Shown one piece after another: positions 32,333 to 56,128 of a DNA stretch of 64,000 nt. Location: positions 62,001 to 126,000 of the forward strand of contig NZ_JAGYIU010000005.1 of the NCBI RefSeq assembly GCF_018402495.1, given 5' to 3'. The stretch is from Pseudoalteromonas sp. (GTDB taxonomy: Bacteria; Pseudomonadota; Gammaproteobacteria; Enterobacterales; Alteromonadaceae). The notes beneath the pieces are model-generated. The model worked only from the letters and a program-made list of their open reading frames with translations, made no database searches and was not told where the DNA came from. The number at the start of each line of letters is the position of its first letter. Positions within the stretch are counted from its first letter, which is position 1. The translations under genes were made by a program, and so were the position numbers.

Positions 32333-33817
<1,485 letters not shown>

Positions 33818-34834
33818 TTAAATTGGGGTAGCAGTAACAAAATCGCCCGATTTCAAATGTAATGCATCAGCAAGTTCTTGCGTAAGCACTAGGCTGTTTG
33901 AGCGCTCGTCAAATGCCATTGGCGTTACTGTTGCTCTAAAGTCTTCAAGTTTGTCATTGGCTAGCAACACCATGGTATCGCCTGTCATTTCGCCAATTTC
34001 AACGCTAAAGTTTTGCGCATTACGAATTGTCGCAATGTTATCTACTTTTGCTTCAACCGTTGGGCCTGCATCAAAAATGTCAACGTAACCATTAAAAGTA
34101 AAACCTTCACTTTTTAATAGTTGAATTGCAGGGCGCGTATTGTCATGCACTTGACCTATTACCGCTTGCGCATCTTTACTCAATAAGTTGACATAAATTG
34201 GATATTTAGGCATAAGCTCAGCAATAAATACTTTTTGACCTATTCCCGTCAGATAATCTGCCGTTGGGAAGTCCATTGAGAAAAAGTGCTCTTCAAGCCA
34301 CTGCCAAAACGGGCTACTGCCGTTTTCGTCAGATACGCCGCGCATTTCTGCAATAACGGTTTGTGCAAAGCGTTGTTGGTGCTGTTTTATAAACATAAAA
34401 CGTGCTTTTGAAAGCAGCTTACCGTTACAATTTTTACGATAGCCGTCTTTTAAAAACAGTGTGCACAGCTCTGTCGCCCCAGTGTAGTCGTTACAAAGGG
34501 TGAGAATATCTACCGCTTTATATACATCTAGCGTGCGCGAAGAGTGAATCACTTTACTCAAATGATAATGATAAAATGCGTCATCTAAGCCAACTGCGGC
34601 TTCAATACCTGAAGTACCGACTACTTCACCAGTTTCAGTGTCTTCAAGTACAAACAAGTACCCTTCATCACCTGGTTGTGACGTGGTTTTTGTAAATGAG
34701 CTAACTGAATGCGCAATCTTCTTCTGTAATAACGCTTCATTATTAGGCAAAGAAGTAAAGCCATGTCCCGACTCGTCGGCGATGGTTACTAACGCTGCAT
34801 AATCACTTTTTTGGATTGGGCGAAGGATCATCAT
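33818..34834 (-). CDS. astA: Arginine N-succinyltransferase
   Basis: MMILRPIQKSDYAALVTIADESGHGFTSLP..., 338 aa. Confidence 0.96.
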   Translation of the reverse strand: MMILRPIQKSDYAALVTIADESGHGFTSLPNNEALLQKKIAHSVSSFTKTTSQPGDEGYLFVLEDTETGEVVGTSGIEAAVGLDDAFYHYHLSKVIHSSRTLDVYKAVDILTLCNDYTGATELCTLFLKDGYRKNCNGKLLSKARFMFIKQHQQRFAQTVIAEMRGVSDENGSSPFWQWLEEHFFSMDFPTADYLTGIGQKVFIAELMPKYPIYVNLLSKDAQAVIGQVHDNTRPAIQLLKSEGFTFNGYVDIFDAGPTVEAKVDNIATIRNAQNFSVEIGEMTGDTMVLLANDKLEDFRATVTPMAFDERSNSLVLTQELADALHLKSGDFVTATPI

Positions 34835-34918
34835 GAATCCGCTTACTCCCTTATATATAACGGTAAATAGGAACTGCAGGGCAAACGTAGTTTGCCCCTA
34901 AAGAAGTTGAATTAGCAA

Positions 34919-36148
<1,230 letters not shown>

Positions 36149-51660: not shown

Positions 51661-51849
51661 CTGCTTACTGCCTTACTTCTACTATGGGTCTAGTGTACGA
51701 GAAAAGCAGCCAATACGTAATAGCTGTCCTTTGGGATGAATTTATCTGCATTTAGTCACTTGACACCTAGACGGCTAAAGTGGTTTAATCGCCTGACTTA
51801 CCCTATTACATTGTATTTGCTAATTGGTTTTTCAATAGCAAGTGCAAAG

Positions 51850-52024
51850 GGCTGGAAGAGGTGCGTTATTCAGGTAGCGTATGTTAGGAGCACAAACTCC
51901 ATTGAGCATACGTGAGGGGAATTAACGCCGAGAGGTAATACTTTTTGTGAAAGATTATCTCGGGCGACTAGGTTGAATCCTAGCGACTGTCACCAATAAC
52001 ATATTTGGTGGAGAGCTTCTGGTC
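51850..52024 (+). ncRNA. Lysine riboswitch (L-box) aptamer
   Basis: ggctggaag AGAGGTGCG..GTAGCGTATG...CATACGTGAGGGGAATTAACGCCGAGAGG...CTAGGTTGAATCCTAG CGACTGTCACCAA...TTGGTGGAGAG cttctggtc. Closing P1 pairs 51850-51858 with 52016-52024; P4 and P5 hairpins are recognisable. Confidence 0.92.
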
Positions 52025-52125
52025 TTAGTATAATAAGGCCGTGCGTCTTGTTATTTAAGCCCATTCGCTCTTCGAATTATTCATTCGAACGATGTTAATG
52101 CGGTTCCATTCATACAATGCCTTAA

Positions 52126-52155: not shown

Positions 52156-53040
52156 ATGAACAACAATTTTAATATAAACGACTTCCATTTATGGACTGCG
52201 CTGATCACCCCATTTGATCAAAATGGCCAAGTTGATTACGCAACATTAAATACCTTAGTGGCCGACCAAGAAGCGGCTAATAATGGCATTTTATTGCTAG
52301 GTAGCACCGGTGAAGGGTTAGCCCTTACCCTAAAAGAGCAGCAAGCCATTGTAGAGCATGTCTGCCAATTAAAACCGAGTGTCCCCCTTATGGTTGCGGT
52401 AGGCGGTAGTAACTTAAAGCAACAGCTTGAATGGGTTAATTACTGCAACCAACTGCCTATTCATAGCTTTTTACTCGGCTCGCCTTTGTATGCTAAACCC
52501 GGTGCACTGGGGCAAACTCATTGGTTTGAAAGCTTACTCGATGCAAGCTCTCATCCGTGTATGCTTTATAACGTACCTGGGCGCAGCGCGGTTAGCATTC
52601 CTATTGCTACCATTGAAAACCTCAAACACCATAAAAATTTATGGGCCCTTAAAGAAGCCAGTGGCTCGATCTCTCAATTTGAAGCCTTTCGAAAAGCAGC
52701 GCCTGATTTAGCTATTTTTAGTGGTGACGATGCACTTATGCCTTACTTTGCCCAAGCGGGTGCTAAAGGTTTAGTGTCGGTTGCAGCTAATGCTTGGCCG
52801 GTGCAAACCCATGAATTTGTAAAGCGAAGTTTAAGCGGCCAACACCCTAATCTTTTTTCGCAGTGGTCTAGCGCTATCAACAGCTTATTTTCAGTAGCAA
52901 ACCCTATCCCAGTCAAAGTGTTAATGCATTTACAAGGGCGTATCAGCAATCCGCATTTACGTCCACCTTTAACGCACCTTGAGCTGACACACACAGATGA
53001 CATTTCATCGGCAAACAACACCATTTTATCTTGGCATTAA
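52156..53040 (+). CDS. 4-hydroxy-tetrahydrodipicolinate synthase-like protein (DapA family)
   Basis: ALITPFDQNGQVDYATLNTLV, LLLGSTGEGLALTLKEQ, YNVPGRSAVSIP, LWALKEASGS, 294 aa. Confidence 0.93.
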   Translation: MNNNFNINDFHLWTALITPFDQNGQVDYATLNTLVADQEAANNGILLLGSTGEGLALTLKEQQAIVEHVCQLKPSVPLMVAVGGSNLKQQLEWVNYCNQLPIHSFLLGSPLYAKPGALGQTHWFESLLDASSHPCMLYNVPGRSAVSIPIATIENLKHHKNLWALKEASGSISQFEAFRKAAPDLAIFSGDDALMPYFAQAGAKGLVSVAANAWPVQTHEFVKRSLSGQHPNLFSQWSSAINSLFSVANPIPVKVLMHLQGRISNPHLRPPLTHLELTHTDDISSANNTILSWH

Positions 53041-53055
53041 ATACAGGTTTTTATA

Positions 53056-53796
53056 ATGAGCTGGTTAGAACTATTAAATAATTTAGAATCGGGCGCGGTT
53101 CGCGCAGCAACACAAGACGACAACGGCCAATGGCACGCAAATATAGAAGTAAAGCAGGGGATTTTAGAAGCCTTTAAAAACGGCCAAAACACCGAGTTTG
53201 CAGGCGGTTTTGTTGATAAACATAACTTAGCACCTCAAGAGTTTACAGCTGATGCTGGGGTTCGTATGGTACCCGGCGGCTCAAGTGTACGCCGCGGTGC
53301 GTATGTTGCCAAAGGGACTATTATCATGCCCCCTGCCTATGTGAATATTGGTGCCTATATTGACGAAGGCACTATGGTCGATAGTCATGCATTAGTTGGC
53401 TCGTGTGCACAAGTAGGTAAAAACGTACACTTAAGTGCGGCAGTACAGCTAGGGGGTGTACTTGAGCCCATTGGTGCAAGCCCTGTGGTAATAGAAGACG
53501 ATGCATTCATTGGTGCAGGCTGTGTGATTGTTGAAGGCGTGGTAGTTAAAAAAGGCGCGGTACTTGCCCCAGGTGTTCGCTTATCTGCAACCATCCCTGT
53601 TTATGACTGCGTAAATGAGCGCCAGCTTGATAAAGGCGAAGCAATCCCTGAATACGCGATTGTGATCCCTGGTTCTCGTCCTGCGTCAAACGATTGGGCG
53701 CGCGAGCAAGGCTTAAGCATGTCGTGTGCGTTAATTGTTAAATACCGTGACGAGCAAAGTGATGCGTCATTATTGCTTGAAGAGGTTTTACGTTAA
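53056..53796 (+). CDS. Divergent, N-terminally short tetrahydrodipicolinate N-succinyltransferase-like protein (DapD family)
   Basis: VNIGAYIDEGTMVDSHALVGSCAQVGKNVHLSAAVQLGGVLEPIGASPVVIEDDAFIGAGCVIVEGVVV left-handed beta-helix; 246 aa. Confidence 0.92.
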   Translation: MSWLELLNNLESGAVRAATQDDNGQWHANIEVKQGILEAFKNGQNTEFAGGFVDKHNLAPQEFTADAGVRMVPGGSSVRRGAYVAKGTIIMPPAYVNIGAYIDEGTMVDSHALVGSCAQVGKNVHLSAAVQLGGVLEPIGASPVVIEDDAFIGAGCVIVEGVVVKKGAVLAPGVRLSATIPVYDCVNERQLDKGEAIPEYAIVIPGSRPASNDWAREQGLSMSCALIVKYRDEQSDASLLLEEVLR

Positions 53797-55001
53797 TGAC
53801 CTTTTTGAGCACGCCCGTTAAAAGCGCTATTGATAAGCTATCAACTGAGCTTGATACGCCCTTTTTTGTTTATGATCTTGATTCACTAAACACACATTTA
53901 ACGCGTTTAATAGCACAAACCGAGGTAAAACTCTGGTATGCCGTTAAAGCGAACCCGTTATCTAGCGTGATCCAACGCTTAAATAACGCTGGTTTTAACT
54001 TTGATGTCGCCAGTAAAGGCGAGCTTGAGCAAGTGCTTGCGCAAGGAATTAATAGTGAGCGTGTGCTCAATACGGGGCCCGCTAAAAGCCCTAAACAAAT
54101 TAAACATTTTATTAAGCGTGGTGTACGCATATTTGTGGCTGAAAGTCTCAATCAAGTTCGGTGGTTAAACGAACAAGCCAATGCCCAGCAGTGCCAATTA
54201 CAGGTTTTATTACGTGTACAATTACGCTGGCCTGAAGGCGAAAAAAATCCACTTGGGGGGGATAGCCTTACTCCATTTGGCTTAGGGTGCGACGAGTGGC
54301 AGGCGCTAAATACCAGTGACTACTGTGCACTTAATTTTGACGGTCTGCATATTTTTCAGTGGGGCAACATGCTTAGCAGCGACAAACTCGCTGAGCTGTG
54401 GACACAAATGATTACGCCGTTAAGGCAACTTGCTGAGGATTTAAATATTAACCTCAAGGTGCTGGATTTAGGTGGTGGTTTAGGTATTCCCTATACGCTT
54501 GATACGCCCACTCTAAGTTGGGATGCACTCATAGAGGCGCTTGCAAAAATTAAATGCGATGCGGGGGTTACTGAACTATGGATGGAACTAGGTCGCTACG
54601 CTGTAGGCGAATGCGGCCACTATGCCACGCCGGTGATTGAACGCAAACTTAACTACGGCCAACAACAGGTGATTATGAGCGGCGGTATTAATCACTTGTT
54701 ACGCCCTGCCGTTACCAGTCAAGATTTTCCTGCGCGTTTATTACGCGATTCAAACGCTGCAAACCAAGTAATGAGCCTATACGGACCATTATGTACGGCC
54801 CTTGATTGCTTAGGAGAGCACCAATTACCCAGTGACTTAAATGAGCATGATTGGCTGGTGTTTAGTCAATGCGGCGCTTATGGCTTTACTGAAAGTATGC
54901 CGTATTTTTTATGCCATGAGCTTGCTGGTGAATATGTAATAGACAATGGCGTATTACGTTGCGTGCGACAAGCACAAGATGCCAGTGACTACTTAAGGTA
55001 A
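53796..55001 (+). CDS. PLP-dependent diaminopimelate decarboxylase-like protein (LysA family)
   Basis: TPFFVYDLDSLNTHL, LWYAVKANPLSSVIQRL, FDVASKGELEQVL, LDLGGGLGIPY; start overlaps the dapD-like stop (TAATG). Confidence 0.88.
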   Translation: MTFLSTPVKSAIDKLSTELDTPFFVYDLDSLNTHLTRLIAQTEVKLWYAVKANPLSSVIQRLNNAGFNFDVASKGELEQVLAQGINSERVLNTGPAKSPKQIKHFIKRGVRIFVAESLNQVRWLNEQANAQQCQLQVLLRVQLRWPEGEKNPLGGDSLTPFGLGCDEWQALNTSDYCALNFDGLHIFQWGNMLSSDKLAELWTQMITPLRQLAEDLNINLKVLDLGGGLGIPYTLDTPTLSWDALIEALAKIKCDAGVTELWMELGRYAVGECGHYATPVIERKLNYGQQQVIMSGGINHLLRPAVTSQDFPARLLRDSNAANQVMSLYGPLCTALDCLGEHQLPSDLNEHDWLVFSQCGAYGFTESMPYFLCHELAGEYVIDNGVLRCVRQAQDASDYLR

Positions 55002-55006
55002 TTATA

Positions 55007-56128
55007 ATGAGTATTACACCCCCTATCAGCCAAGAAAATATCGTGGTTGGCGAAGTCGCAAACGGGCTACCACTGACTATTCCTGTGTATCGTTTAAAGG
55101 GCGATGGCACGGGGCCAAGCGTGTATATACAAGCTAATATGCATGGCGCAGAGGTGCAAGGCAACGCGGTAATTTACCAACTACTTGAACAGTTAAAAAC
55201 ACTGAATTTAAAAGGCGATATTACCTTAGTACCTTACGCTAACCCCATTGGCTGTAACCAAAAGTCGGGGGAATTTACTCTTGGCCGATTCGATCCCATT
55301 ACGGGGACTAATTGGAATCGCATGTATCACTGCAATAATCAACTTGCGACCCAGTTTGCACAGCAGTACAGCGATGCCGATGATCAGGTGCTAAAAGCAG
55401 CTTTTAAAGCCGCGTTAACTAATGACGTTGAGCAACAGCTCAATGGCCCTAATTATCGTTTAACGACGGGGAAACGGATTGCGCTAAACTTACAAAAATT
55501 GGCGCATCAAGCTGATATAGTTTTAGATTTACACACCGGCCCTATTTCTAGTCAACACTTATATTGCCCTGAGTATGCCATTGATAGCGCGCGTTACTTT
55601 AATATTCCCCATGTGCTCGTTATTCCTAATGACTTTGATGGCGCAATGGATGAGGCAAGCTTTTGTCCATGGTGGCAGCTTAGCGAGCAACTTGCTCAAC
55701 AGGGGCGTGAATTTAACGTGCAAGTTGAAGCTTTTACGGTAGAACTGGGCAGCCAAGAAAAAATCGATTTAAGCGCAGCACTAGACGATGCCAATAGTAT
55801 TTTAAGTTATTTAAATTATAAGCACGTATTTGTTGATGCCCCCTACAAGCCAAAAACGATGACAAGATATGGCTGCCAACTAAATGACTATATTGCTTAC
55901 TATGCGCCTATGGGTGGCATGGTTGAATACCTAGCGCCTCTTGGTGGGCATATTAAAGCCGGCGAACCCATTGCAAAAATACTACGGATGGAGCGCTATT
56001 TAAGCGAGCAACCTTTACAAACGCTGAGCTTTGATCATGATGCGATTGCGATATTACATTTTGCCTCAGCCAGCGTAAACCAAGGCACCGAACTGTATAA
56101 GTTTTTTACTAACGTTTTTGAGCTTTAG
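55007..56128 (+). CDS. AstE/AspA-family (succinylglutamate desuccinylase/aspartoacylase) zinc hydrolase
   Basis: VYIQANMHGAEVQGNAVIYQLLEQL, LDLHTGPISSQHLYCPEYA, VEAFTVELGS; 373 aa. Confidence 0.9.
   Translation: MSITPPISQENIVVGEVANGLPLTIPVYRLKGDGTGPSVYIQANMHGAEVQGNAVIYQLLEQLKTLNLKGDITLVPYANPIGCNQKSGEFTLGRFDPITGTNWNRMYHCNNQLATQFAQQYSDADDQVLKAAFKAALTNDVEQQLNGPNYRLTTGKRIALNLQKLAHQADIVLDLHTGPISSQHLYCPEYAIDSARYFNIPHVLVIPNDFDGAMDEASFCPWWQLSEQLAQQGREFNVQVEAFTVELGSQEKIDLSAALDDANSILSYLNYKHVFVDAPYKPKTMTRYGCQLNDYIAYYAPMGGMVEYLAPLGGHIKAGEPIAKILRMERYLSEQPLQTLSFDHDAIAILHFASASVNQGTELYKFFTNVFEL

Follow-up and report, generated by a model that had tools for sequence, protein, structure and literature searches.

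To our knowledge, all bacterial lysine pathways of the diaminopimelate (DAP) type finish with the decarboxylation of meso-DAP, so that lysine and the cell wall share one pool. Why, then, would a bacterium that follows this rule keep two lysA genes? The question is raised by an operon in Pseudoalteromonas sp. (contig NZ_JAGYIU010000005.1, positions 62,001–126,000; this stretch of 64,000 nucleotides is referred to as the window and gives the coordinates used below). Here, a lysine riboswitch is followed by four tightly packed genes, all on the + strand, for DapA, a short DapD (DapD2), a LysA-like protein (LysA2) and a hydrolase of the AstE/AspA family (AstE2). On balance, we favor the reading that this operon encodes a second, lysine-repressed lysine pathway whose intermediates would stay succinylated until the last step, bypassing both DapE and DapF.

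A second set of lysine genes behind a riboswitch

The riboswitch aptamer (RF00168) occupies the operon leader at 51848–52026 (+), where it matches the full model (positions 1–182) with a cmscan score of 104 bits against a gathering threshold of 30 bits (E = 1.3e-26). The start site of dapA, GTGAGAGATG, lies 129 nt downstream, and because no terminator-like site separates it from the aptamer on the + strand, control is likely exerted at the level of translation. A gap of 15 nt separates dapA (52156–53040, +; 294 amino acids) from dapD2 (53056–53796, +; 246 amino acids), which shares 1 nt with lysA2 (53796–55001, +; 401 amino acids) in a TAATG overlap; astE2 (55007–56128, +; 373 amino acids) follows after a further 5 nt. 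Both the open reading frames and the RF00168 match agree with an earlier prediction, made from the DNA sequence alone (hereafter the original prediction), of four co-directional genes behind a lysine riboswitch.

The first two enzymes are recognizable members of their families. DapA, a 4-hydroxy-tetrahydrodipicolinate synthase, passes TIGR00674 (263.8 bits; cut-off, 206 bits) and retains all of the catalytic residues T45, Y107, Y133, R138 and K161. The six residues that make up the site of lysine inhibition in the E. coli enzyme (S48, A49, H53, H56, E84 and Y106), a site that does not define every DapA, are all altered, and control would therefore rest on the riboswitch. DapD2, a tetrahydrodipicolinate N-succinyltransferase, passes NF008808 (302 bits; cut-off, 204 bits) and remains below TIGR00965 (192.6 bits; cut-off, 375.4 bits). 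It is 42–43% identical to canonical DapD, the copy of the host included, and lacks ~31 N-terminal residues, in keeping with the predicted shortening by about 30; the short form is common to its orthologs in two phyla.

Canonical DapD, canonical LysA and DapE, the last with two homologs above the TIGR01246 cut-off, are all encoded elsewhere in the host genome, DapD adjoining glnD and LysA adjoining dapF (glnD and dapF were named by eye, not by model). The operon is therefore a second, extra set. The search for canonical dapD, dapE and lysA had been proposed alongside the original prediction of a second, lysine-controlled module, an idea that the canonical set, the conserved linkage described below and the confirmed riboswitch all uphold. 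Each of 109 Pseudoalteromonas species has a LysA that passes TIGR01048 alongside LysA2, with one of these canonical lysA genes frameshifted. This gene belongs to Pseudoalteromonas sp. T1lg48 (genome G054; locus L271, 4670–5931), in which canonical lysA is split and lysA2 is intact; the frameshift may reflect a genuine loss of the gene or a fault in the assembly.

A scan for LysA2, with one genome per species, found loci in Pseudoalteromonas, Colwellia, Thalassotalea and relatives of Psychrobium, as well as, in another phylum, in Halobacteriovorax and Bacteriovoracaceae. All 80 loci have dapD2 ahead of lysA2, and in 78 of the 79 that could be evaluated lysA2 is followed by astE2 (median gap, 20 nt; one contig ends just past lysA2), which speaks against a chance arrangement. 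No homolog of DapE or DapF is encoded in any of the dapD2–lysA2 loci. Conserved linkage, and with it the co-occurrence of the hydrolase gene with the short dapD that had been put forward as a check, is thus found in two phyla, and it survives the insertion of genes between members of the core (loci L107, L113 and L114). The core usually lies behind a lysine riboswitch, with RF00168 also found upstream of the Colwellia/Thalassotalea and Halobacteriovorax operons, and the accompanying genes vary: riboswitch-dapA-core in Pseudoalteromonas, riboswitch-lysC-dapA-core in the Psychrobium group, riboswitch-lysC-dapB-dapA-dapD2-lysA2-astE2 in Halobacteriovorax and dapB-core in the metagenome-assembled genome (MAG) CSMAG_194. 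In Thalassotalea (L173), the riboswitch governs dapD2-lysA2-astE2 alone.

The decarboxylase LysA2 and the hydrolase AstE2

Although the third gene had been taken for an ordinary lysA, its product is the most unusual member of the operon. LysA2 passes no curated model, scoring 205 bits with TIGR03099 (below cut-off) and 190.6 bits with TIGR01048 (cut-off, 297.9 bits), and it carries a threonine where DAP decarboxylases have a glutamate. In Thermotoga maritima LysA, this glutamate follows the catalytic cysteine and binds the distal amino group; the engineered E315T variant loses most of its activity on DAP (from 675 to 26 mU/mg) and gains activity on 2-aminopimelate, which is devoid of the distal amino group (from 15 to 482 mU/mg; PMC8277567). 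More generally, the residue after the catalytic cysteine in this fold tracks a free amine at the distal end of the substrate (PMC7857480).

The LysA2 pair at this position, Cys333-Thr334 (54792–54797, +), was placed by alignments; motif counts refer to 119 distinct LysA2 sequences and residues called invariant to an alignment of 24 rows. A GPLCT motif is present in 117 of the 119 (the other two were unmatched by the pattern used), whereas all canonical LysA proteins compared have CE(T/S), and Thr334 is invariant across the alignment. The lid motif of DAP decarboxylases (THPYISTG) is absent from all 119 sequences, and FLCH stands where these enzymes have YN-x-R. Throughout the 119 sequences, LysA2 retains the two arginines that hold the distal carboxylate, along with the PLP residues: Arg267 (in E-x-GR; 54594–54596, +) and Arg303 (in the RP of the specificity helix; 54702–54704, +) correspond to R249 and R285 of the T. 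maritima enzyme (PMC8277567), and they are invariant in the alignment, together with the pyridoxal phosphate (PLP) residues K51, H185, E264 and Y362. A site of this kind, which would grip the distal carboxylate but not an amine, fits N-succinyl-DAP, the expected product of the preceding steps.

The closest solved structures by sequence are BtrK and SbnH, with DAP decarboxylases after them, and the C-T loop and an FL-x-H motif are common to LysA2, BtrK and SbnH. BtrK acts on a glutamyl thioester and SbnH on N-citryl-diaminopropionate (PMC7857480). LysA2 forms a clade of its own apart from canonical LysA (support 100/100), which, with an identity of 27–29%, rules out a plain duplicate of the host LysA. 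Its score below the TIGR01048 cut-off, its separate clade and its coexistence with canonical LysA together argue for a distinct substrate. A further LysA-like family (L205–L212 and L076), with GPLCTPLD and FL-x-H motifs and ~160 bits to LysA2, occurs in several families of the order.

AstE2 matches PF24827 (AstE_AspA; 105.9 bits), and its orthologs have been solved as 3fmc and 3lwu (450 and 446 bits), which we take to be Shewanella proteins, the PDB search having given no organism; a search for literature on 8EIN/8EIP and on Shewanella locus tags found nothing relevant. It is present in 61 of 61 Pseudoalteromonas genomes searched, the host among them. The zinc and catalytic residues are kept in the window protein (HGAE, DLHT and TVELG), and HGAE, DLHT and T-x-E-L are retained over 116 distinct orthologs with few pattern misses. 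The N-acyl hydrolase function given to this gene in the original prediction is therefore plausible, and AstE2 is a candidate desuccinylase that could act on N-alpha-succinyl-lysine, on N-succinyl-DAP or on both. Identity with AstE of arginine catabolism, which had been named as part of an outcome that would speak against such a role, is ruled out: no AstE model matches, and NCBIfam gives only DoeB, at 32 bits. Profile searches of the Pfam/NCBIfam type likewise gave no model match indicating homology to the M20 DapE family.

A proposed succinylated route and its alternatives

From these features we infer the substrates and the order of the last two steps. DapA and a shared DapB would supply tetrahydrodipicolinate, DapD2 would succinylate it, and a shared transaminase of the AstC/ArgD type would convert the product to N-succinyl-LL-DAP. 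A candidate for the amination step lies outside the operon at 34919–36124 (−); its product matches NF003468, the model for acetylornithine/succinyldiaminopimelate transaminase (733.7 bits), and TIGR03246 (698.5 bits), as expected from the class originally assigned to it. LysA2 would then act at the L-center, decarboxylating the free L-amino-acid end of N-succinyl-LL-DAP to N-alpha-succinyl-L-lysine, which AstE2 would hydrolyze to L-lysine and succinate. Because LysA2 is not an ordinary LysA, the usual order is likely changed, with decarboxylation ahead of succinyl removal. DapE and DapF would be bypassed, so that lysine could be produced, and its synthesis repressed through the riboswitch, with no call on the meso-DAP of the cell wall. 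Such a bypass makes sense of a three-gene core that comes without DapE and DapF: in Thalassotalea, the riboswitch-controlled core plus a transaminase would turn tetrahydrodipicolinate into lysine only if those two enzymes are bypassed. We give an even chance to the broader proposal that this constitutes a new end to lysine biosynthesis, avoiding DapE, DapF and free DAP, in Pseudoalteromonas, relatives of Colwellia and Halobacteriovorax.

The transaminase gene is part of an AstC-AstA-AstD set of the arginine succinyltransferase pathway (32333–36124, −); neither astB nor astE was noticed among the open reading frames of the window, which were read by eye only.

Several observations weigh against the proposed route. 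Phylogeny, suggested earlier as a check, separates LysA2 from canonical LysA but leaves its nearest relative unfixed, the branching being unstable once SbnH is dropped, and comparison of folds does not tell BtrK from DAP decarboxylases as its counterpart. Among nine Halobacteriovorax genomes, TIGR01246 (DapE) at E = 1e-10 has no match in seven and weak matches in two, and TIGR03540 (DapL) exceeds its cut-off in none (the search did not extend to the plant-type model of DapL); those class I aminotransferases that were inspected lie in aromatic or other contexts, and neither dapF nor a second dapD was found in 2.0 of the 4.0 Mb of genome G503. AstE2 may thus have to make LL-DAP in these bacteria. 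A genome that is probably of Shewanella (G065; L042, 5774–8515) carries riboswitch-lysC-astE2 with neither dapD2 nor lysA2, which gives AstE2 a lysine-linked role without LysA2; a LysA2 hidden elsewhere in G065 is ruled out, its 173-bit match being an ornithine-decarboxylase-like protein as judged by eye. Because of Halobacteriovorax and G065, AstE2 can probably also act on N-succinyl-LL-DAP, contrary to the strict form of the proposal. Conversely, no astE2 is linked to the lysA2 of MAG SP335: its dapB-dapA-dapD2-lysA2 (L127, 3608–13150) runs into an arginine cluster that includes N-acetylornithine carbamoyltransferase, and no canonical LysA is shown in this MAG of 1.5 Mb.

The Halobacteriovorax and G065 findings also support the model of the original prediction, in which AstE2 is a DapE analog that releases LL-DAP, a shared DapF epimerizes it and LysA2, regulated by lysine, decarboxylates meso-DAP in the ordinary way. 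MAG G088, which has no DapE and no DapD above cut-off besides the DapD2 of the operon, points the same way. As a replacement for DapE, AstE2 would indeed suit Halobacteriovorax, with the same operon and no recognizable DapE, but not the Pseudoalteromonas host, where two DapE homologs pass TIGR01246 and AstE2 as the only DapE is ruled out. We consider the model unlikely overall, since a TIGR01048-passing LysA is present in every genome tested except MAG SP335, with or without LysA2, dapF is found in no operon, and LysA2 is devoid of the glutamate for the distal amine, the engineered loss of which to threonine nearly abolishes DAP decarboxylation (PMC8277567). The missing dapF would be explained if AstE2 made LL-DAP and LysA2 decarboxylated this at its L-center, with only DapF bypassed; the lack of a recognizable DapE in Halobacteriovorax and the L-center chemistry of the relatives BtrK, SbnH and FigC agree with such a scheme, but Thr334 disfavors a free distal amine, for which decarboxylases that bind one have Asp or Glu, and we regard it as distinctly improbable. 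That the product is not lysine at all but, for example, an N-acyl-lysine or a metabolite derived from DAP, lysine serving merely to signal, would recall the siderophore and antibiotic pathways in which relatives of LysA2 work, but is very improbable for a unit that combines a lysine riboswitch with dapA (and lysC and dapB in other genomes), ends in a hydrolase gene and is free of tailoring genes such as those for a transporter or a ligase.

Relation to known systems

The proposed route, with AstE2 acting last, shares DapA, DapB, N-succinylation of tetrahydrodipicolinate and transamination of the ArgD/AstC type with the succinylase branch (DapD-ArgD/DapC-DapE-DapF-LysA). It differs in that the operon is without DapE and DapF and has a non-canonical decarboxylase and an AstE/AspA-family hydrolase as its last gene, and in that succinyl removal would come after decarboxylation. 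The N-citryl-diamino-acid decarboxylases SbnH and FigC, together with BtrK, have the PLP-dependent alanine-racemase fold and act on acylated or thioester-bound L-amino acids; SbnH and BtrK share the Cys-Thr loop and the FL-x-H motif with LysA2, but not the specificity-helix arginine that LysA2 keeps, and LysA2 lies in a lysine operon. A biosynthetic step on an N-acyl amino acid ahead of deacylation has a parallel in the arginine route through N-acetylornithine carbamoyltransferase, whose gene adjoins dapB-dapA-dapD2-lysA2 in MAG SP335, although that route leads to arginine rather than lysine and involves carbamoylation rather than decarboxylation.

No publication proposing an N-succinyl-lysine route was found in a literature search of incomplete coverage. 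The operons themselves, and their control by a riboswitch, have been reported: a 2017 table of lysine-riboswitch operons lists dapA-dapD-lysA-hypothetical1-hypothetical2 for Pseudoalteromonas haloplanktis and lysC-dapB-dapA-dapD-lysA for Bacteriovorax marinus (PMC5584792). That table treats lysA as an ordinary gene and lists the fourth gene of the first operon as hypothetical; the part of the source consulted describes neither how LysA2 diverges, nor the third conserved partner, nor the chemistry proposed here.

If correct, the proposal would mean that lysine and cell-wall synthesis are uncoupled by decarboxylation of a succinylated intermediate, which would give a reason for the two lysA genes of these bacteria and a function to the AstE-like proteins 3fmc and 3lwu, whose structures were solved without a named function. 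It would also bear on drug work that targets DapE and DapF, and on annotation, in which lysA2 and astE2 can easily receive the wrong names.

Downstream of the operon, in many but not all Pseudoalteromonas, lies a phospholipase A1 gene (PF02253; 56279–57343, + in the window), which is probably the second hypothetical gene of the 2017 table and outside the module.

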